In this document: piece by piece, positions 5,356 to 24,375 of the stretch
Layout: each line of letters begins with the position of its first letter
How positions within the stretch are numbered: the stretch's first letter is position 1
From: a virus
Virus record (IMG/VR): IMGVR_UViG_3300025889_000285
Span: 1 to 40,144 of that record
Strand: one strand, 5' to 3'
DNA length: 40,144 nucleotides
The notes under the pieces: generated by a model
Database searches by the model: none
Seen by the model: only the letters and a program-made list of their open reading frames with translations
Told to the model about the DNA's origin: nothing
Made by a program: the position numbers and the translations under genes

Positions 5356-6246
5356 TCACTTGATTGGCCGCACTTTCCGGCCTGTCCGCAGATAATGTTT
5401 TTGGGTTACTGACCTTGATGAATGCCCAAGCTGCCGAGTGGCATCGCCGCCCTGGTCTTCCAATTCGCCAGCATGTGCGGCTCTCAAGTCTTTCAACTGG
5501 AACAAGTCATAAGGCTTGAGTTTCTGTCTAAGTCTCTGCCATGCGGAATCTATGCCTGATTCGCTTATCCCTTGGAAATACCCAGGCTGCAATCTTTTGA
5601 TGACCTTTCGCAGCGAAGGCGTCCATTCAATCCTGACTTTCTTGGCCGTCTTGCCTTCCACTAGATGAATTCCATCCTGGCGGATATTCATGTCTGTCAT
5701 GTTTAACGCATCCTCGCGCCTCAAGCCTGTCAAATAGATGAGCCACATCAAATGCCTCTCTCTTGAATTGGCCTGTCGCATGACCGACCACAATTCGCCT
5801 GGCGACACTTGCCTGTCCCTGGGTGTCTCTTTCACCCGGTACTGCAGGCCACGTAGCGGGTTGAATTCAACAAGCCCCCAGTGGACACACTTTGTCAAAA
5901 CATGCCTCAAAAGGGCGATCTCTCTATTAGCCGACACGTTCCCGAAACGGTCCAGGTATTCGATGGCATGCGGTGCTTTGATCCTATCTACCGGGAAATG
6001 CCCGAAGATCTTGTCCAGCTTTGTAAGTTGCCTTGCCTGGACCTTGGAAGTCTTTTCGGCCTTGGTGAATAAAACCTCTTTTCTGTAGCGCCTGATTGCT
6101 TTGGACAAGGTGTTTAGGCTGATGCCTAATAGTTCCTCAGCCTTGTTGACGGCTTCCTGCTCATCTGGCCCCAGATTGATCCAGACCCATCTGTTTTCCT
6201 TTTTTACCCTCAGTCGGTAGTTTTTACCATGTCTATGAATCTTCAC
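5356..6246 (-). CDS. int: Tyrosine recombinase (phage integrase)
   Basis: The 296-residue protein has an N-terminal arm-binding-like region, a core-binding domain (about 60-140) and a catalytic domain (about 145-296). Visible catalytic residues are R176 (TGLRRED), K199 or K202 (GKTAKK), R255 (KDLRAAHA), H275 (LGHSS) and Y285 (HYLR). The residue that is His in the usual HxxR motif is Lys here (K252). It recombines attP with the host tRNA-Lys gene. The gene starts two bases after a DUF4224 gene, as in many prophages, and its 3' end faces attP. Confidence 0.95.
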   Translation of the reverse strand: MKIHRHGKNYRLRVKKENRWVWINLGPDEQEAVNKAEELLGISLNTLSKAIRRYRKEVLFTKAEKTSKVQARQLTKLDKIFGHFPVDRIKAPHAIEYLDRFGNVSANREIALLRHVLTKCVHWGLVEFNPLRGLQYRVKETPRDRQVSPGELWSVMRQANSRERHLMWLIYLTGLRREDALNMTDMNIRQDGIHLVEGKTAKKVRIEWTPSLRKVIKRLQPGYFQGISESGIDSAWQRLRQKLKPYDLFQLKDLRAAHAGELEDQGGDATRQLGHSSRSVTQKHYLRTGRKVRPIK

Positions 6247-8213: not shown

Positions 8214-8508
8214 CAGTTAAGTAACTCCAGGCTTTTCTAGTAATGTCTTCTGGGCAATTTAATGCTAAGGCGCAAGCTGCATGTCCAACCCATGCCTTTC
8301 TATTAATACTGTAATCAGTCAATGCGTTTTCACATGAATATATCCATTCATTAATAACGCGCTTCATATAACTACCATACAACTTATGATTACCAGTAAA
8401 CTCTATTGCTTTCTCCAGCATTGAATTTCGGTCTGATACAGTCCCCCACATATTGTGTTTGATTTCTTCCCATATCTGATATTGATGGTAAATACGTTTA
8501 AGCTGCAT
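8086..8508 (-). CDS. Third protein of the PP-loop/ParB module, about 140 aa
   Basis: Helical protein with a recognisable conserved middle: EKAIEFTGNHKLYGSYMKRVINEW, then NRKAWVGHAACALALNCPE, then a C-terminal segment with Trp and Gln. It accompanies ParB/PP-loop pairs in other temperate phages as far as I recall, but has no known activity. I prefer ATG 8508; ATG 8532 adds eight residues and neither has a strong ribosome site. It overlaps the ParB gene by 11 bases and the 102-aa gene by 128, so all are translationally linked. The region is clearly AT-richer than the late genes. Confidence 0.72.
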   Translation of the reverse strand: MQLKRIYHQYQIWEEIKHNMWGTVSDRNSMLEKAIEFTGNHKLYGSYMKRVINEWIYSCENALTDYSINRKAWVGHAACALALNCPEDITRKAWSYLTDEQQLLANKEAEQAIQTWEYHHFKNTELYKHMGTEMLFGWDT

Positions 8509-9409
8509 CTTCGTTGAATTCCATTTCAGCATCCCATGAATCTGAAAAGTCCTGATTCTGGAATAAAGAAGATAATCCGGTAATTTGCTTCATCCGTAAC
8601 AACTCATCTGGACTCATGCCTATATGCTTGCATATCCATCTGTCACCTTTCCCCATCTCAACAAGCTCAGAAACAATATTGCTCATTAGTTCAATATTGT
8701 GGCTACCCCTCGCCCTGTTGTGTCTGATAGTAGATGCCATTCTGTCTGACATCTCTTTATTGAGTACAACAACAGGCAGCATTCCTTTTTCCCTTTCTCT
8801 AATACGCTCAGAGTCGCGGAGAGTCTTGAATCTATGGAATCCATCAACTACAACATAGGTATCACTATCTGGGTTGTAAACAACTACTACAGGCTGGGTG
8901 TAACCGTCTTCCCAAATAGAGGTTTCAAGCAATTCCATTTCAGGAGGCGCAACACTGTTTGGGTTGTAGTCGTTGGCAGTGACCTTATCTATCGGCACTC
9001 GCCTTACATCATAGACAGGTGATTTATATTCAGATGGATATGACCCATCATCACCGTGTATCTCTTTGCCTTTTAACGGAGGGTTAAAAACACATAAAAG
9101 CGTAACCTCTTCAAAAGCCTGGAAGGTGTGTGGGTCATGCTGGTCTAGGATATAAGTTGTGTCTGGTTCAATAGTGAAAGACTCACCAGTTATTGTATTG
9201 ACAAGTTCACCCTTGCCTGCGATGCAGTAACAACTTTCTATATGATTTTTGTAATGCCAAAATTGCTTTTCACCTACAGGGATGGTTGTTTTGTGTAGGC
9301 CATATCCAACATTATCTTCTTCTATCAAAATCCTGTTACTTATAAAGCCATTATTCGGACAGAAAACAATTCTTTCATTTGCTAATTCATTTGTTTTTAT
9401 AACCTTCAT
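8498..9409 (-). CDS. Ectoine-synthase-like cupin fused to a ParB nuclease-type domain (IbrB-like)
   Basis: Residues 1-125 follow ectoine synthase (EctC) closely: HYKNHIESCYC, YILDQHDPH, and CVFNPPLKGKEIHGDDGSYP. The iron ligands known for EctC (Glu, Tyr, His) align to E58, Y86 and H94. Residues about 130-300 are a ParB/sulfiredoxin-fold domain (VPIDKVTANDYNPN, VVDGFHRFKTLR, RHNRARGSHN) with an HTH-like tail. ParB-like IbrB partners of PP-loop proteins are known; I do not know of an EctC fusion. It starts inside the stop of the PP-loop gene (ATGA). Ectoine synthesis is unlikely because no ectA or ectB genes are present. A sensor or a small-molecule enzyme coupled to DNA binding is more plausible. 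Confidence 0.88.
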   Translation of the reverse strand: MKVIKTNELANERIVFCPNNGFISNRILIEEDNVGYGLHKTTIPVGEKQFWHYKNHIESCYCIAGKGELVNTITGESFTIEPDTTYILDQHDPHTFQAFEEVTLLCVFNPPLKGKEIHGDDGSYPSEYKSPVYDVRRVPIDKVTANDYNPNSVAPPEMELLETSIWEDGYTQPVVVVYNPDSDTYVVVDGFHRFKTLRDSERIREREKGMLPVVVLNKEMSDRMASTIRHNRARGSHNIELMSNIVSELVEMGKGDRWICKHIGMSPDELLRMKQITGLSSLFQNQDFSDSWDAEMEFNEDAA

Positions 9410-10710
9410 GCTACGCTCCTATATTTTTCTTGTATTTCTTTTTGCCTGACAGCTTGTTCCCTGGTAGGAGCAAGCCCCAAATATTTACAAGTGTGGTCAT
9501 TCTTGAGAATTGTTATTGCAAATCGCTTCCATGAAGTCACCATGCTGTTATGGCACTTCAGCATATCCAGGTGATCTGGTGGTCTTTTTATAATTACCCG
9601 TTGCAGTGAGTTGCCACCATGAGGGGTGACACCATTTAACTTAAAGGGGATTCGATTGCTTTCTAAATCACTGATGATTTCTTCTGGCAATCCGCGCCCT
9701 ATCCTTCCCCAGTATTTGATTGACTGGATAAAACGCTGTCTAAAATTTTCACCAACTTCCTTTGGCAGGGTTTCTAACAAAAACTTAACAAATGATTTCC
9801 ATGTATGACCATTGGGGAGATTGAATGAGTGATAGCTCAACTGTTTTCCGTATGTCGCTATAAAATTAGCACCAGCAACCCTGGCGCATAATCTGGCCCA
9901 TACATCAGGATCAATGACGCGATAAAGAGATAGACTGCTTTTAGACTCACTCATAAATGGCGAAGCGACCCGCATTTTTCCTACTGGTACGCCAGCCCTA
10001 TAGAAAATGTCGTATAGCTTGTTGTATTCAAAATCAAAACGATCGTTAGCTATCCATACATCATCTGTTTTCCAATCATAAATAGGGTATACGTTATAAG
10101 TGTGCAAAGTATTCTTTTTCGTCCAGGGTTTTCCAGAAAACATCACTTTATCTTCATTCATTATTGCCCTGAATCGATTTAGGCTTTCTGATGCCCTGAT
10201 TCCTATAAGATTGGCGCAGCTTTTCCCTTGTGAGTACCATTCTGCGAAACCATCCCAAAAATCATCGTAGTGCATATTTTCAACAAAGAAATCGAATGGA
10301 TGATTGGCGATATTTACAATGTAGTCATTGTCAGGCATTGGCCTAACCCATTTGTCTTTGTCTTCCTCTCCCCAACACTGCCAATCAACAGCGTATGAGG
10401 AGATCGTACAAGGCAAAGTTATAGGCAAACAACACCAATAAATATCGAATAAATCCCTATTGCTCTGCAATATAGAGTGCATGAAGTTCAAGGATTGAAT
10501 GTAATTAGCTTCGTTGTCTAATATTTGAATGCCTATTTTTTTATCTATTTTGTTTTTACGCATATATTGGATGACAAGATTTATCATCAATCCTGAATCC
10601 TTACCTCCAGAAAATGAAAGATATATCCGTTCAAAATTATTGAAGATAAAATCTATGCGCTCCATTGCAGCGTCATAAACATTCTTATTTTTGTTATATA
10701 CTCTTTTCAT
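9406..10710 (-). CDS. PP-loop ATPase of the PAPS-reductase / DUF3440 family (IbrA-like)
   Basis: The N terminus carries the PP-loop SFSGGKDS (residues 32-39 from ATG 10710), which binds ATP for adenylation. The rest shows PAPS-reductase/DUF3440 features: LIGIRASESLNRFRAI, YPIYDWKTDDVW, and PFMSESKSSLSLYRVIDPD. The family includes IbrA of E. coli prophages and is distantly related to DndC, which places sulfur in DNA. The substrate is unknown. I start at ATG 10710, one base beyond the upstream stop; ATG 10731 would add seven residues. Its stop overlaps the cupin-ParB start. Local base composition is AT-rich, suggesting a separately acquired module. Confidence 0.9.
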   Translation of the reverse strand: MKRVYNKNKNVYDAAMERIDFIFNNFERIYLSFSGGKDSGLMINLVIQYMRKNKIDKKIGIQILDNEANYIQSLNFMHSILQSNRDLFDIYWCCLPITLPCTISSYAVDWQCWGEEDKDKWVRPMPDNDYIVNIANHPFDFFVENMHYDDFWDGFAEWYSQGKSCANLIGIRASESLNRFRAIMNEDKVMFSGKPWTKKNTLHTYNVYPIYDWKTDDVWIANDRFDFEYNKLYDIFYRAGVPVGKMRVASPFMSESKSSLSLYRVIDPDVWARLCARVAGANFIATYGKQLSYHSFNLPNGHTWKSFVKFLLETLPKEVGENFRQRFIQSIKYWGRIGRGLPEEIISDLESNRIPFKLNGVTPHGGNSLQRVIIKRPPDHLDMLKCHNSMVTSWKRFAITILKNDHTCKYLGLAPTREQAVRQKEIQEKYRSVA

Positions 10711-10711
10711 T

Positions 10712-11470
10712 CTAAAAAGGAATATCGTCATTTGGTTGATAATTCTTGGTCAACTGCCAGTATTTCAATAGGCAGAGAAATTTTTCATAATGACTGCCTT
10801 CATCGGCCCGTTCTTCCCAAACATGCCAGACAATTAAGCCAGGGTTGTTTCGGCTGACGAAAACATTTGCCATCCTGGCATTCGCCATTCCCAGTCCATG
10901 TGCGTATGCCGCAAGCTGCATAGCATGTTCGTCCCAAGCCATTTTCTTGCCCATGTCCTCGGGTCCGAAATCTTTGGTTTTGTAATCGATGACCCACCCA
11001 CCGGGATGGTGTAAATCACACATTCCGCCATAACCATTGTGCGAAAAACTTTTTTCAGCTATCCAGCCGTCTTCAAATCCAGTGACTTCAAGCGTCCTTT
11101 CTTTAACTAGCTCGGCAATCTCACGCCATGTCCCGGCGGGTTCATCCTTCCAGACGGCTTCTATATCGGCATGAATGGCCGATCCGGTTTCCATCGCCTG
11201 CTTGGTTTGCTCAGTAGAATCCTGCTTTGCGCGTTTTTTATAATCGTCCAGGCTTTCGCCTTCGACCTTTGGCAGAGTCAAGGCCGACAAAAGTGCCTGC
11301 TCAACTAACCAGTTGGTCAGGGCAGGCTTTGCCGCCATGTTCAAGATTTCTGTCACGGATGGGAAAAGGTTTTCTTTCCTGGCATCACGCAAAGTGGTTG
11401 CTCTTTCGTTGCCGTTTTTCCCAACAATAAAATGCCGAGGGTTGCCTTCTGAATCGTACCAGTGGCCCAT
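10712..11470 (-). CDS. PD-(D/E)XK exonuclease of the recombination operon
   Basis: A 252-residue RecB/Cas4-type nuclease. Motifs in order are GSAIHADIE (about 97-105), GGMCDLHHPGGWVIDYKTKD (acidic residue, then the D-x-K pair) and QLAAYAHG (QxxxY). It would resect double-stranded DNA 5'-3' and load the annealing protein encoded two genes upstream, as in lambda Red-like systems. The C terminus is QPNDDIPF, an SSB-like tip not usual for this nuclease class. Its start overlaps the stop of the 88-aa gene by one base. Confidence 0.9.
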   Translation of the reverse strand: MGHWYDSEGNPRHFIVGKNGNERATTLRDARKENLFPSVTEILNMAAKPALTNWLVEQALLSALTLPKVEGESLDDYKKRAKQDSTEQTKQAMETGSAIHADIEAVWKDEPAGTWREIAELVKERTLEVTGFEDGWIAEKSFSHNGYGGMCDLHHPGGWVIDYKTKDFGPEDMGKKMAWDEHAMQLAAYAHGLGMANARMANVFVSRNNPGLIVWHVWEERADEGSHYEKFLCLLKYWQLTKNYQPNDDIPF

Positions 11471-11736
11471 TAGTCCTCCTGTGTGATTGCAAGCAGATCA
11501 GAGATTTTGCGGTCGATTTCCATGACACGCGCTTGAGCGGCGGCATGGATTTCTTTTTTCAAATCTTTCAATGCTTGGATTTCGATATTGACAATTTCTT
11601 CGCGTGGCCTTTCAACAAAATCAACCTCTACATATTCAGTCATGCGAATAAAATCATCCTTGTTTTCGTAAAATTCCCGGCTCTCACCGATGGTGATGTA
11701 ATCATGTTTCACGCTTCTGTATTGGGCTATCTTCAC
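11470..11736 (-). CDS. Small helical protein of the recombination operon, 88 aa
   Basis: Acidic N-terminal half with aromatic residues (YITIGESREFYENKDDFIRM) followed by a long amphipathic helix (about 40-80) ending ISDLLAITQED. It lies between the ERF annealing protein and the exonuclease and overlaps both, so the three are expressed together. Unrecognised small genes at this position are common in phage recombination operons. No function can be read from sequence. A coiled-coil partner of one neighbour is possible. Confidence 0.75.
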   Translation of the reverse strand: MKIAQYRSVKHDYITIGESREFYENKDDFIRMTEYVEVDFVERPREEIVNIEIQALKDLKKEIHAAAQARVMEIDRKISDLLAITQED

Positions 11737-12329
11737 GCAGCTAACCTCTCTTTTGCTTGGTTTTTGTCATCTTCGTAAAGCGCATGTTGATCTTTGTTCA
11801 GCGACTTCCAGATCGCCGCGAGTTCCTCGATTGATTCCGCTGATTCGAATTTCTGTAGGATGCTTTTGACTTTGCGTGGCTTTTTAACTGGAGTAGGGTC
11901 TTCTGGCGAACCATAACGCGATTCGTCATCATCGCCAGATTCAAGGGCGAAAACCTTCAGCATGGCCATTTTTACGGCATAAGAAACAGCCTTGCCAGGT
12001 GCTTTATCGCCGTTATCGTCTGCATGTGATTCGATCTCTAAAACAAGCCTGTCCTCGGGCGCGTCTACATTGACGAAATCTACAGAATAGGTGGCTTCAT
12101 AACGTATCTTTTCGCCACCCTTTTGAGTAACACCTGGGATGCTCTCAGATGACTTTAATGATGGATAGATCACTATCCCATGTTTGACTAACAGTGGATG
12201 CAGCATCCCAGCTACAGCGTCATGTGAAACAGCAGAATAGGTATTATTGCCCCAGCCTACGGTTGAATCTTTCTTGACATAACTGGTTTCAGCCATGACG
12301 GCATTGATTCTTTGAAATATGTTTTTCAT
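11733..12329 (-). CDS. erf: ERF-family single-strand annealing protein
   Basis: 198 residues. The ERF domain covers about 1-140. It opens with a segment ending VGWGNNTYSAVSHD, continues through LLVKHGIVIYPS, and ends in the hallmark DNGDKAPGKAVSYAVKMAMLK. A Pro/Lys linker and a helical C-terminal domain (about 155-198) follow. ERF proteins form rings that anneal complementary single strands, giving the phage its own recombination and circularisation route after infection. It is paired with the exonuclease downstream and the start codon follows directly on the 61-aa gene. Confidence 0.93.
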   Translation of the reverse strand: MKNIFQRINAVMAETSYVKKDSTVGWGNNTYSAVSHDAVAGMLHPLLVKHGIVIYPSLKSSESIPGVTQKGGEKIRYEATYSVDFVNVDAPEDRLVLEIESHADDNGDKAPGKAVSYAVKMAMLKVFALESGDDDESRYGSPEDPTPVKKPRKVKSILQKFESAESIEELAAIWKSLNKDQHALYEDDKNQAKERLAA

Positions 12330-19728: not shown

Positions 19729-21680
19729 TGGAAGTTAAAACAGAGAAGACGCCCGATGACTTTGTAGAAAAAGTCCAGGAGCGTTGGAAGCAAAGCAAAG
19801 CACACTCATCTCAATGGCGCCAGGAAGCCCGTGCTGACTATGAGTTTGTCGCTGGAAAGCAGTGGACAGATGACGAACTGGGAGAACTTGAGGACGCCTT
19901 GAGGCCTGCTATTGTCTTCAATCGAATCGGTCCTGTCATTGACAGCGTGTGTGGTCATCAGGTCAACAATCGCCAGGATATCCGCTTCACGCCTCGCCAG
20001 TTGGGTGATGTGCAAGTGAGTGAAATCCTCACAGGCGCAGCCGCATGGGTGGATGATGAATGCGACGCCGAGGACGAAATCTCAGACAGTTTCTGGGACT
20101 TAGTCATCTCGGGCATGGGTTGGACGGAAACCCGAATATCGTATGACAGCGATCCTGACGGCAAGATTCATTCAGCCGAGCGCATTTCACCGCTAGAAGT
20201 CTGGTGGGATTCATCATCTCGCAAGCGCAACCTGTCGGATGCCCAGTATGTTTTCAGAGGCAGATGGATACCACGCAAAGAAGCAGAAGCCCGCTGGCCC
20301 AAGATGAAAGAGCTGGAACCGTCCGAGGGCGATTTCTGGGAAGGTGACGATCGTTTAGATACGCATGATGCACAGGAAGCCTGGAAATACGAATCGGGTG
20401 AGAGTGAATGGAACAACCCGAAAAAAGATGAGGTCTTCGTCCTGCAGTATCAGTGGTGTGAACGGAAGCCGATGTACCGCGTACTCGATCCGATGACTGG
20501 TGAACTGGTTGAACTGGACGAGAAAAAATACAACAAGATCAAAGATGCAATCGACGATCTGCAGACGGTTAAACAGGTTAAGAAATACTATTACCAGGCG
20601 TTTCTGTGTGGGTCGTCTGTGCTGGAGAAAGGCGATTGCCCTTGTCCGCACAGCTTTACCCTGCTGTGCATGACGGGCAAGCGGGACATGAACGACAACA
20701 CCTATTATGGCTTAGTTCGTGGGATGAGAGATCCGCAACGCTGGGCAAACAAATTCTTTGCCGAGATTCAGGATATCCTTGTAAGCAACCGCACGGGTGG
20801 TGCATTTGTCGAAGAATCCGCGTTAGCCAACCCACGCCAGGCGGAAGAAAAGTGGAATCAACCGAATCCACTCATCACTGTCAGGGATGGTGCGTTAGGT
20901 CGAGGTGCGATACAGGAGAGGAATCCCATTGCCTACCCGGCAGGGCTGGACAGGCTGATGAACTTCGCTGTCAGTGCGATTCGTGATGTCTCAGGCGTCA
21001 ACCTTGAATTAATGGGCCTGGTGGACAGGCAACAAGCCGGTGTTCTGGAAGCCCAAAGAAAGCAGGCAGGCATGACGATCCTTTCGTCTTTCTTCGATGC
21101 GTTAAGGCGTTACCAGAAAGAGCGTGGCCGGGTGCTGCTTTACTTCATTCAGACGTACATCTCCGACGGAAGATTAATCAAGATCATCGGCGGCGATGGG
21201 ACAGAACAATACATCCCATTGATGCGCGATCAGCAGGCCACCAAATACGACATTATCGTGGATCAATCACCCACATCCACAAGCCAGAAAGAAGAAACCT
21301 TTGCTGTCCTGCAACAGCTTTTGCCCGCGCTGATGAAAATGGGTGCGCCTATTCCGCCGGATGTGCTTGATTACATGCCCTTGCCGTCTTCGCTTGTCAG
21401 CAAGTGGAAGGAAATGATGGTCGGATCGCAGCAAGATCCACAAGCTCAAGCTGAAGCACAAAAGATGATGGCGGACGTTGAACAGAAGAAATCCCAGGCC
21501 GCTTTGAATTACGCCAGGGCGCAGTCAGAAGGCGGCAAAAACCAGGTCGCACAATTCAGGAATCAGATTGACGGCATGAAGACATCGCAAGACGCGAAGA
21601 AATTAGAAATTGAAGAAAGACGGGTTGCTAACCAAGAGGCAGAGACAGTTAGCAAGATGATTGAACGAGCAACACTGTGA
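19728..21680 (+). CDS. Portal protein, P22-like family
   Basis: 650 residues. The N-terminal pattern (RWKQSKAHSSQWRQEARADY, FVAGKQWTDDE, RPAIVFNRIGPVIDSVCGHQ) and the later SAERISPLEVWWDSSSRKRN are those of P22-type podovirus portals. The C-terminal 80 residues are a Gln/Glu/Lys coiled-coil barrel-like extension. It forms the dodecameric ring through which DNA enters and leaves the capsid. It is preceded by terminase and followed by the scaffold gene. Confidence 0.93.
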   Translation: MEVKTEKTPDDFVEKVQERWKQSKAHSSQWRQEARADYEFVAGKQWTDDELGELEDALRPAIVFNRIGPVIDSVCGHQVNNRQDIRFTPRQLGDVQVSEILTGAAAWVDDECDAEDEISDSFWDLVISGMGWTETRISYDSDPDGKIHSAERISPLEVWWDSSSRKRNLSDAQYVFRGRWIPRKEAEARWPKMKELEPSEGDFWEGDDRLDTHDAQEAWKYESGESEWNNPKKDEVFVLQYQWCERKPMYRVLDPMTGELVELDEKKYNKIKDAIDDLQTVKQVKKYYYQAFLCGSSVLEKGDCPCPHSFTLLCMTGKRDMNDNTYYGLVRGMRDPQRWANKFFAEIQDILVSNRTGGAFVEESALANPRQAEEKWNQPNPLITVRDGALGRGAIQERNPIAYPAGLDRLMNFAVSAIRDVSGVNLELMGLVDRQQAGVLEAQRKQAGMTILSSFFDALRRYQKERGRVLLYFIQTYISDGRLIKIIGGDGTEQYIPLMRDQQATKYDIIVDQSPTSTSQKEETFAVLQQLLPALMKMGAPIPPDVLDYMPLPSSLVSKWKEMMVGSQQDPQAQAEAQKMMADVEQKKSQAALNYARAQSEGGKNQVAQFRNQIDGMKTSQDAKKLEIEERRVANQEAETVSKMIERATL

Positions 21681-21687
21681 GGCACAG

Positions 21688-22545
21688 ATGAACGAGGCAA
21701 TTTTAGAGGAAACAGCTGAAGAACGTGATTTTTTTGAGACTGGAGGGCAACAAGATGAAGTGCAAGACACCCAAGAAGCCACAGCCGCCGAAGAAAGGCC
21801 GGTAGAAGCCAAAGAGGAAACCAAGGAAGAAAACACCATCCCGCATGCGCGATTCCATGCAGAAATGCAGGAACGACAGCGTTACCAGGCAGAGGCGGAA
21901 GCACTCAGGCGTCAGAATGAAGAACTGATGTCCTTGAAAGAACAGCTTAACGAATTACGCCAAGGCAAGGCTCAGGAAGAAGACAGCCAAAGTTTCGATA
22001 ATGACCCGCTGGGTTACATGAAGAACAAGATTGACGGCATGGAGCAGATGACAGCGCAACAACAAGCGCAATACCAGCAGGCCATGCAGCAACAGCAAGC
22101 GATTGCCAATCTGAATAACTGGGCTGGCACACAGGTTAATGAATTTGCCACAAAGCACGAAGACTATGGCGATGCGTTGAATTTTGTCATGGAAAAACGC
22201 GCCGAGCAGTTGAGGTTTTTCAATGAACAGATGGGCGTGAACACACCCATCGAGCAGATCCTGCAACAAGAGAGCTTCAATCTCATCGCCCAGGCCGCGC
22301 AAATGGGTAAAAACCCGGCGGAAATCGTTTACAACATGGCCAAGTCACAGGGGTATAAGAAGCCCGAGACTGAAGCCAAGTCCAAACTCGACACAATCAA
22401 CAAAGGGCAGGCGGCATCTCAGTCTTTGGCAGGCACTACCTCGAACCCTGATGTAAAACCGAATGTGTCAGACATTTCCGGCATGTCAGATGAAGAATTT
22501 GATGCTTACTGGGCCAGGTATGAAAAGGAAGCTAGGGCGCATTGA
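21688..22545 (+). CDS. Capsid scaffolding protein
   Basis: ATG 21688 has GAGG upstream; the frame from TTG 21661 overlaps the portal and is less likely. The product is very acidic and Gln-rich: Glu/Thr/Ala-rich residues 1-45, a coiled coil with EALRRQNEELMSLKEQLNEL, a run of Gln around 110-140, and a C-terminal acidic end (SDISGMSDEEFDAYWARYEK). This composition and its place between portal and coat genes are typical of scaffolds, which shape the prohead and then leave it. Confidence 0.88.
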   Translation: MNEAILEETAEERDFFETGGQQDEVQDTQEATAAEERPVEAKEETKEENTIPHARFHAEMQERQRYQAEAEALRRQNEELMSLKEQLNELRQGKAQEEDSQSFDNDPLGYMKNKIDGMEQMTAQQQAQYQQAMQQQQAIANLNNWAGTQVNEFATKHEDYGDALNFVMEKRAEQLRFFNEQMGVNTPIEQILQQESFNLIAQAAQMGKNPAEIVYNMAKSQGYKKPETEAKSKLDTINKGQAASQSLAGTTSNPDVKPNVSDISGMSDEEFDAYWARYEKEARAH

Positions 22546-23089
22546 AGACTTCCCTGTCAAAGACTATGCAGAACGTGTCAAGTATTTGAGGGATGCCTGG
22601 ACAGAACGGCAAGGCTTTTTCACTTTGGGCGCAGCCGCCTATCTGGACAGGGACTATCGGGAACTGGCGCATCAGGTCAACCCGGTCATCTGGCACTACT
22701 TTCCAGACTTGTTACAGGACATCAAGACATACTTTGACGGGGAATATGACTTAACCATCGGGTTGCCGGGCTTTCACATCTTTGACAAACAAAGCAATGG
22801 CCTGGTGGGTAGTATTCATGTAGACACGCCCTGGGCGAAAATCTGGGGCCGGGCCGATGATGTGTTTTCCTTCACTTTACCTTTAGAACTGCCGTCCTTT
22901 GGCGGTGGCTTAAACTGGTGGGATGAAGGCATGCACTTCATGGACTACGAGATTGGCAAGCTATACATCCATGATGGCGCAACCTATCATCAGATCGCGT
23001 CTTTAGGTGATATGGCTGAAGACGAATATAGAATTACACTACAGGGCCACGGTGCAACCGTGGGTAATCGCAAATACCTGTACTTCTAG
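22520..23089 (+). CDS. 2-oxoglutarate/Fe(II)-dependent oxygenase-like protein, 189 aa
   Basis: The double-stranded beta-helix signature is visible: GSIHVDTPW (H100, D102), YIHDGATYHQIAS (H157) and EYRITLQGHG (R171), i.e. HxD...H...R with the Arg that holds 2-oxoglutarate. The family includes prolyl hydroxylases and nucleobase oxygenases. It sits between scaffold and coat genes, so it is made with the capsid and may hydroxylate a virion or host protein. ATG 22520 overlaps the scaffold gene by 26 bases and its ribosome site is weak, so the exact start is uncertain. Confidence 0.82.
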   Translation: MKRKLGRIEDFPVKDYAERVKYLRDAWTERQGFFTLGAAAYLDRDYRELAHQVNPVIWHYFPDLLQDIKTYFDGEYDLTIGLPGFHIFDKQSNGLVGSIHVDTPWAKIWGRADDVFSFTLPLELPSFGGGLNWWDEGMHFMDYEIGKLYIHDGATYHQIASLGDMAEDEYRITLQGHGATVGNRKYLYF

Positions 23090-23090
23090 C

Positions 23091-23263
23091 CCGAAGTAAA
23101 AGGGCTGTGGTTGGTTCACCTAAAACTAATCGAGCGAGATTCAAAATTGCTGTGGCCCTCATGTGCCGGGCCTTAAACTCACATGCCCTCACAGCCGAGC
23201 GAGGCTATAAATTGCTGGTCCGTGCGAGGACTCAAACCGCTGTGCCTGGTCAGGCTCACGACC
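23091..23263 (+). ncRNA. Tandem hairpin array in the leader of the coat gene
   Basis: Three 25-base units share one plan: a 4-bp stem, a loop GAGCGA or GTGCGA, then NNAAANNGCTG. The stems differ but still pair: AATC/GATT (23128-23141), AGCC/GGCT (23193-23206), GTCC/GGAC (23218-23231). Units 2 and 3 abut. Between units 1 and 2 a 40-base piece can fold as GCTGTG/CACAGC around CATGTG/CACATG, or as an H-type pseudoknot with GGCCC/GGGCC. A hairpin AGCCC/GGGCT also starts at the previous stop. No protein frame is present. I know no RNA family with this loop. Confidence 0.6.
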
Positions 23264-23298
23264 AATAAATCACGACCTTAATTTTTGGAGTTAAAAAA

Positions 23299-24375
23299 AT
23301 GGCTACAACTTCGTATGGAGTAAATGCCAATGAGGCCGTCAAACTTTGGTCGCGCAAACTCATGCGCGAGGCGCTCAAGCAAACCTGGGCATCGAAATTC
23401 ATGGGCAAGGATTCAAACTCTTTGTGCCAGGTACAAGATGACACCCAGAAAGGGCCAGGCGACAGAATCCGTACCATCCTGCGTATGCAGTTGGCGGGCA
23501 CGGGTATACAAGGTGACGGAACCCTCGAAGGCAATGAAGAACAACTTGTCACACACACCGACAATCTGCTGATTGACCAACTTCGCCACGCTGTAAGAAG
23601 CGGCGGCAAGATGACCGAGCAGCGCATTCCTTTTTCTGTGCGTGAAGAAGCACGGATGGGTCTGCAGGATTGGTGGGCGGACAGGTTTGATTCCTGGTTC
23701 ATGAACCAAATTTCAGGCAACAGCGCACAAACCGACACCCGTTACACAGGGAACAATGCGGCCACTGCACCGACTGCAAGCAATGTAATTTTTGCGAACG
23801 GTCATGCGGTTGAAAGCACCCTGACGGCAACGGCCAGTGCAATCTTCAGCCTGTCACTGATTGACGAAGCGGCGCTTAAAGCCCGCACCCTGTCGCCCAT
23901 TATCCGTCCGATTAACACGGAAGCCGGGCAGCATTACGTCATGTTTATCACGCCAGAACAGCATTACGATCTCAGACGGGACACGAACACGCTGCAATGG
24001 GGTGACATCCAGAAGGCGGCAATGCAGGGCGGTCAAATCAGCAAGAACCCAATCTTCACCGGAGCCTTGGGCATGTACAACGGTGTAATTCTGCATGAAG
24101 CCTTCAGGCTTCCCAGGATATCAACCGGCGGTGCATCCACCACAGGACGTGCGGTGTTGTGCGGGGCGCAGGCGGCAATGTTTGCCTTTGGTCGAGGATT
24201 CTCGAAAGACCGGATGGACTGGAATGAGGAGATGTTCGACTACGGCAATCAACTGGGTGTGTCAGCCGGGTGTATCGCGGGCTTGAAAAAGACTGTTTAC
24301 AACTCGAATGACTTTGCAACTGTAACAGTCTCGGCGGCGCATTCTGCTGCGGCTGAATCTGCGAACGGGAGGTAA
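23299..24375 (+). CDS. Major capsid protein, N4-gp56 family
   Basis: 358 residues with family features: NEAVKLWSRKLMREALKQTW near the N terminus, GDRIRTILRMQLAGTGIQGD, then a helical spine, and HYVMFITPEQHYDLRRD, GMYNGVILHEAFRLPR and GRGFSKDRMDWNEEMFDYGN in the second half. It is an HK97-fold coat protein as in N4-like gp56 relatives. The gene has a good ribosome site (TTTGGAG) after a structured leader and is followed directly by a probable decoration gene, fitting very high expression. Confidence 0.92.
   Translation: MATTSYGVNANEAVKLWSRKLMREALKQTWASKFMGKDSNSLCQVQDDTQKGPGDRIRTILRMQLAGTGIQGDGTLEGNEEQLVTHTDNLLIDQLRHAVRSGGKMTEQRIPFSVREEARMGLQDWWADRFDSWFMNQISGNSAQTDTRYTGNNAATAPTASNVIFANGHAVESTLTATASAIFSLSLIDEAALKARTLSPIIRPINTEAGQHYVMFITPEQHYDLRRDTNTLQWGDIQKAAMQGGQISKNPIFTGALGMYNGVILHEAFRLPRISTGGASTTGRAVLCGAQAAMFAFGRGFSKDRMDWNEEMFDYGNQLGVSAGCIAGLKKTVYNSNDFATVTVSAAHSAAAESANGR

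Follow-up and report, generated by a model that had tools for sequence, protein, structure and literature searches.

A row of repeated hairpin-like sequences lies directly before the major capsid protein gene in the window analysed here, the 40,144-nt stretch of viral DNA spanning positions 1 to 40,144 of IMG/VR record IMGVR_UViG_3300025889_000285. This locus raises the question of which RNA structure the repeats adopt and what that structure could do for the capsid message. Upstream of the capsid gene the window encodes a P22-like portal. A 208-aa ORF (22463-23089, plus strand) is found between a probable scaffold gene (21661-22545) and the leader; it gave a weak match to PHROG 24927 and no Pfam match. 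On the minus strand (5356-6246 and 8498-12329), genes for an integrase, a ParB-like protein, a PAPS-reductase-family protein and an Erf-like annealing protein were identified, and on this basis the window probably belongs to a temperate phage that carries a PAPS-reductase gene as a moron. No long sense-strand ORF spans the array (23083-23264): frame 1 of the leader is interrupted by many stops, and the other frames stay open for about 30-58 codons past the upstream stop, contain nothing recognised and are not joined to the capsid frame.

The first-pass annotation had described three 14-base hairpins with compensating stems, an invariant loop and an invariant 3' flank. The three 14-mers are present exactly (AATCGAGCGAGATT at 23128, AGCCGAGCGAGGCT at 23193 and GTCCGTGCGAGGAC at 23218), all four stem pairs vary with compensation among them, and AAA-NN-GCTG follows each. 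The letters of the loop and of the flank AAANNGCTG were also as described, but the description was incomplete, in that loop and flank are the two strands of a second predicted helix, AGCGA pairing with TTGCT in the first two 14-mers (units 3 and 5) and only GCG with CGC in the third (unit 6). Since the loop GAGCGA pairs with the flank AAANNGCTG, each unit is predicted to fold compactly as an H-type pseudoknot whose third loop is rich in A, laid out in the classical order S1a-L1-S2a-S1b-L3-S2b. The larger stem or pseudoknot suspected between the hairpins corresponds to unit 4, in which GGCCC/GGGCC is combined with CATGTG/CACATG. The array exceeds the extent originally proposed, and comprises about seven units, four strong and three weaker (Table 1). 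Unit 1 overlaps the end, including the stop codon, of the upstream ORF, and its stem 1 may lengthen to UACUUC/GAAGUA. Unit 2 can alternatively be drawn as GUG/CAC with UUGGU/ACUAA, two bases then being common to unit 3, while stem 2 of unit 6 has only 3 bp and is weaker.

Table 1. Predicted features of the capsid leader and the adjoining gene (positions in the window)
Feature	Position	Strand	Description
Whole tandem pseudoknot array	23083..23264	+	5' leader of major capsid gene; non-coding past stop at 23089
Unit 1	23083..23106	+	CUUC-U-AGCCC-GAAG-UAAAA-GGGCU; stacking about -17 to -21 kcal
Unit 2 (weak, uncertain)	23109..23127	+	GGU-U-GGUU-C-ACC-UAA-AACU
Unit 3 (first annotated hairpin)	23128..23151	+	AAUC-G-AGCGA-GAUU-CAAAA-UUGCU
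Unit 4	23154..23185	+	GGCCC-U-CAUGUG-CC-GGGCC-UUAAACU-CACAUG; stacking -22.9 kcal
Unit 5 (second annotated hairpin)	23193..23216	+	AGCC-G-AGCGA-GGCU-AUAAA-UUGCU
Unit 6 (third annotated hairpin)	23218..23240	+	GUCC-GU-GCG-A-GGAC-UCAAAC-CGC
Unit 7	23244..23263	+	GCC-U-GGUC-A-GGC-UCAC-GACC; loop 3 without AA
Shine-Dalgarno (SD) GGAG	23287..23290	+	From sequence; outside every predicted pseudoknot
Major capsid protein gene	23299..24375	+	Pfam Phage_capsid_3, PHROG 334

The array was compared with chance by means of a pseudoknot finder accepting H-type structures with stem stacking of at most -11 kcal and a third loop of 4-8 nt containing AA. The window leader (23080-23264) yielded 5 strong pseudoknots, whereas 1000 dinucleotide shuffles averaged 0.5 and reached at most 3, and was the best-scoring region of the 40-kb window on both strands. 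A nested fold of the same leader has a similar energy (-59.5 kcal/mol), and one of its helices, a long-range pairing of 23101-23109 with 23180-23189, is in competition with units 1 and 4; stacking energy versus nested folding does not decide between the two folds. As the finder settings were picked after inspection of the window and its relatives, the relatives constitute the real test. Five sets were considered. Set A comprised 80 IMG/VR loci retrieved with the capsid protein; sets B, C and D contained relatives of Rhizobium phage RHph_Y1_10, Microcystis phage Mae-JY35 and Erwinia phage Pavtok, respectively, and set E was drawn from named bacterial genomes. Sets B, C and E, fetched after the settings had been fixed (one loop limit was widened from 3 to 4 nt, with shuffles treated alike), gave the same result as the earlier data.

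Tandem rows of 2-4 units were found in the leaders of three groups of relatives and in alphaproteobacterial prophages, with the consensus CGNN-S2-NNCG-U(U)AAA-S2'. Across 62 capsid leaders, we counted 1.82 pseudoknots per leader; shuffles gave 0.49, and windows elsewhere on those contigs 0.62. Per 220-nt leader (shuffles in brackets), the values were 1.93 (0.58) for set A, 2.04 (0.54) for set B and 1.56 (0.66) for set C, while set D leaders contained no arrays and gave 0.47 versus 0.52 in shuffles. A strict motif, requiring CG at the start of stem 1 and a third loop U[UAC]AA, occurred at 3.11, 3.16, 1.64 and 2.45 per kb of leader in sets A, B, C and E, respectively, at 0.00 per kb in set D leaders, and at 0.06-0.09 per kb elsewhere on the same strand of the same contigs. 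The density of tandem units in leaders is about 20-50 times that elsewhere on the same contigs, and the strict motif is confined to the sense strand of capsid leaders, with background levels elsewhere on either strand. Arrays are carried by isolated phages of Paracoccus, Rhizobium and Microcystis, among others, and by prophages in named hosts such as Bradyrhizobium, Reyranella, Vineibacter and Pseudohoeflea. A similar array is present in Acidovorax phage AP1, which has a betaproteobacterial host and a capsid identity of 26%. IMG/VR pattern scans with fixed-letter versions of the motif returned few loci, and some of the matches (L095-L097, L268) look like chance occurrences inside genes, making the fixed-letter pattern a poor detector.

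Two observations were made beside the main survey. The exact string CGUC-U(U)-GCCC-GACG-UUAAA-GGGC, a predicted pseudoknot of the same type, occurs just before phage tRNA genes (L090:138-160, plus strand; L092:6779-6801 and L094:4340-4361, minus strand). At two further sites (L093:14025-14047, plus strand; L089:7659-7681, minus strand) it lies just before a terminator-like hairpin and is there apparently part of a separate non-coding RNA. At all five sites Rfam returned no family except tRNA, and the L093 and L094 sites had no match in phage records. Separately, in the Manatee Spring phage MW202512.1 (L082:2475-3043) the capsid match does not begin until residue 29 and follows immediately on an ORF annotated as "icea protein", and an intron or homing-endonuclease insertion near the capsid start is possible there.

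Covariation was assessed by pair counting and by an anchored permutation; a covariance model cannot hold a pseudoknot. For the permutation, 70 distinct units were chosen only by the anchor CG-U[UAC]AA, with no selection on pairing. Their stem 2 had an energy of -7.87 with its own partner versus -4.17 with permuted partners (sd 0.42; z = -8.8), and own partners also beat shuffled letters of the same strand. Within one leader, the values were -7.50 for own partners and -3.40 for those of the remaining units (p about 5e-6). In an alignment of 20 Rhizobium-phage-like leaders of set B, with three of the four pseudoknots written out, (i) both sides had changed in 19 of 25 pairs, including all five pairs of stem 2 in the second unit, (ii) 80% of paired cells could pair, versus 29-48% when partners were slid by 1-3 columns, and (iii) the covariation score was 0.391 versus 0.177 in shuffles (0/500). 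The only close leader to that of the window is an identical copy (L001), and the covariation is therefore shown for the family rather than for the window's own units. Throughout the relatives, stem sequences vary freely, and what recurs is chiefly loop 3 together with the stem 1 ends; units are several per leader and variable in number. In the general unit, stem 1 spans 3-6 bp, a loop 0-4 nt and stem 2 4-7 bp; the third loop is rich in A, of the U(U)AAA type, and is predicted to cross stem 1. Comparison among relatives establishes that the predicted fold is conserved, that it occurs in tandem and that it lies before the capsid gene, and we are highly confident that the leader forms tandem pseudoknots. 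The annotation had named relatives without similar leaders and unconserved stems as the outcome that would speak against it; the opposite was observed, with similar leaders found and stems conserved. Simple hairpins with an invariant loop read by a protein were rejected, given that the loop is base-paired with the flank in the predicted pseudoknot and the two co-vary, relatives varying freely at these letters while keeping the pairing.

The Pavtok/Bcep22-like phages of set D (loci L170-L249, L086 and L088) encode the same capsid family and are devoid of arrays, as are phages of Agrobacterium, Sinorhizobium and Ochrobactrum with a set-D type capsid. Of 74 set-D loci, 43 have a CsrA-like gene upstream of the capsid gene, versus none of the 114 loci of sets A-C, although array loss and CsrA-like genes are confounded with phylogeny in this set. 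The Pfam CsrA score is above the cut-off for BcepIL02 and below it for Pavtok. A common sequence, GCGCATGACGTGC, is shared by 29 of 77 set-D leaders, about 44 nt before the AUG.

The distance from the upstream stop to the capsid AUG has a median of 153-159 nt in sets A-C, where a median of 58-71 nt separates the AUG from the end of the array's last strong knot, leaving the SD uncovered; an SD-like stretch is present in 80-100% of these leaders. In some relatives a sigma-70-like promoter is positioned at about -140 to -210, immediately upstream of the leader, the best being TTGACA-17-CATAAT in Paracoccus phage KLEP18-1, which would place the array near the 5' end of the capsid transcript in those phages. 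Such promoters are only modestly above shuffles in sets A and C (0.18-0.20 versus 0.05-0.07) and not above shuffles in set B, and a promoter search in the window gave only weak 9/12 matches.

Based on these comparisons, we think that the array is an undescribed cis-acting RNA control element for capsid production. Action through shape is favoured on three grounds: the stem letters are free to drift, each leader has several units whose number varies, and the SD is not part of them. Quite possibly, although we put this forward tentatively, the array is a stability or processing element of the capsid message that acts in cis as a shape barrier to ribonucleases. The action of the pseudoknots on the RNA would depend little on stem sequence and would involve several copies, the row forming a mechanical obstacle at the start of the capsid message or, alternatively, at the scaffold-capsid junction of a processed late transcript. 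This barrier would stop or stall ribonucleases, and the capsid cistron, required in hundreds of copies, would outlive the remaining late mRNA while the downstream SD stays free. Against the barrier stands the fact that the set-D groups manage without an array. A narrower form, the specific blocking of the 5'-3' exonuclease RNase J, is less likely in view of the host spread, being weakened both by the array of a betaproteobacterial (Acidovorax) phage and by the array-free phages of Agrobacterium, Sinorhizobium and Ochrobactrum. An effect on ribosomes rather than on nucleases, whereby the knots would bind S1 or the 30S subunit and hold ribosomes at a standby site near the capsid start, raising translation, is less probable but a live alternative, with precedents: in tisB, S1 and the 30S subunit need the 5' pseudoknot in order to bind, about 100 nt upstream of the ribosome-binding site (RBS), and an H-type pseudoknot obtained by SELEX is bound by S1 with nanomolar affinity (PMC7708055). 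The array likewise lies tens of nt upstream of an apparently exposed SD, and such loading would require no sequence-specific protein, consistent with free stem drift. However, standby in tisB follows from a sequestered RBS whereas the capsid SD looks free, and a single pseudoknot is enough for tisB, which leaves 4-7 copies unexplained.

Somewhat less probable still is a translational operator, at which coat, scaffold or another late protein would bind cooperatively and repress capsid translation when in excess. The gp32 protein of T4 represses its own mRNA by nucleating on a single pseudoknot 67 nt upstream of the AUG, adjacent to UUAA(A) repeats (PMC3014915), the CsrA-like gene of set D looks as if one post-transcriptional control had replaced another, and a protein could recognise the U(U)AAA loop and the CG at the stem 1 ends, both of which recur. 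Yet stem 1 in the window has no conserved letters, so that little would be readable beyond the A-rich third loop, and with the array clear of the SD repression would require spreading. A ligand-sensing riboswitch or a DNA-level element (packaging or recombination site) seems improbable: compact pseudoknots are common among riboswitches and the place is constant, but there was no match to an Rfam riboswitch, no conserved ligand-pocket letters, a variable copy number and no expression platform over the SD, and the strict motif is restricted to the sense strand of capsid leaders. The packaging element suggested by the first-pass annotation found no support. The weakness of units 2, 6 and 7 of the window, and the letters that units 3 and 5 have in common, speak for chance hairpins or decayed repeats without RNA function; this explanation, rejected by the shuffle, permutation, sliding and elsewhere-on-contig controls, is contradicted for the family and very hard to credit overall.

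Overall, rows of 2-7 pseudoknots are maintained through compensating changes in a capsid-gene lineage comprising dozens of related phages, among them Rhizobium, Paracoccus and Microcystis phages and prophages of Bradyrhizobium, Reyranella and others. It is conceivable, although we hold it with some doubt, that these rows form a new and widespread RNA class in podovirus-like phages, in which modular tandem H-type arrays would set capsid output by RNA shape alone, either as a bacterial counterpart of viral nuclease-resistant RNAs or as a multi-copy ribosome-loading platform, replacing the CsrA-like protein of sister phages. The lineage offers cultivable leaders in which to study how phages increase or adjust capsid expression, and whether the shape of an RNA is by itself enough to block bacterial ribonucleases or to recruit ribosomes.

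Searches against Rfam 15 found no family at gathering score in the window and none, STAXI included, in nine relatives at E<=1, apart from a sub-threshold chance match elsewhere; the STAXI model RF01728 gave no match in the window at gathering score and none in the leader region at E<=10. Together with the covariation across phage groups, this lends good support to the annotation's proposal of a new structured RNA class; its translational operator for coat or scaffold and its RNA-stability element each keep some probability. In open-literature searches, with most subscription papers outside their scope, no report of tandem pseudoknots before phage capsid genes was found, and tandem pseudoknot arrays are rare among described RNA families. 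Rows of pseudoknots form the upstream pseudoknot domains in the 3' UTRs of plant RNA viruses, and also occur in type III toxin-antitoxin (ToxI-like) RNAs, as near-identical repeats preceding a toxin gene; in contrast, the units of the capsid leaders differ in most stem letters and are followed by the gene for the major capsid protein. The closest described tandem-pseudoknot RNA is the STAXI motif (Rfam RF01728), a small pseudoknot in two and usually three tandem copies, found close to enterobacterial ssb, topoisomerase, antirestriction and integrase genes and often carrying UUCG tetraloops (PMC2864571). The capsid-leader arrays resemble it as tandem pseudoknots in at least two copies, and differ by their place, in the window and its relatives, by the A-rich U(U)AAA third loop and by fast stem drift. 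The gene 32 leaders of T4, T2 and RB69 similarly have an H-type pseudoknot tens of nt upstream of a phage gene start, under cis control, but in a single copy, before a gene for an ssDNA-binding protein and with a known protein ligand (PMC3014915); according to the same 2010 T4 review, this pseudoknot may be the sole viral example in translational autoregulation. The tisB mRNA shares with the capsid leaders an upstream H-type pseudoknot far from the RBS, and is set apart by its single copy, its toxin-encoding message and the demonstrated binding of S1, and apparently also by its sequestered RBS (PMC7708055).
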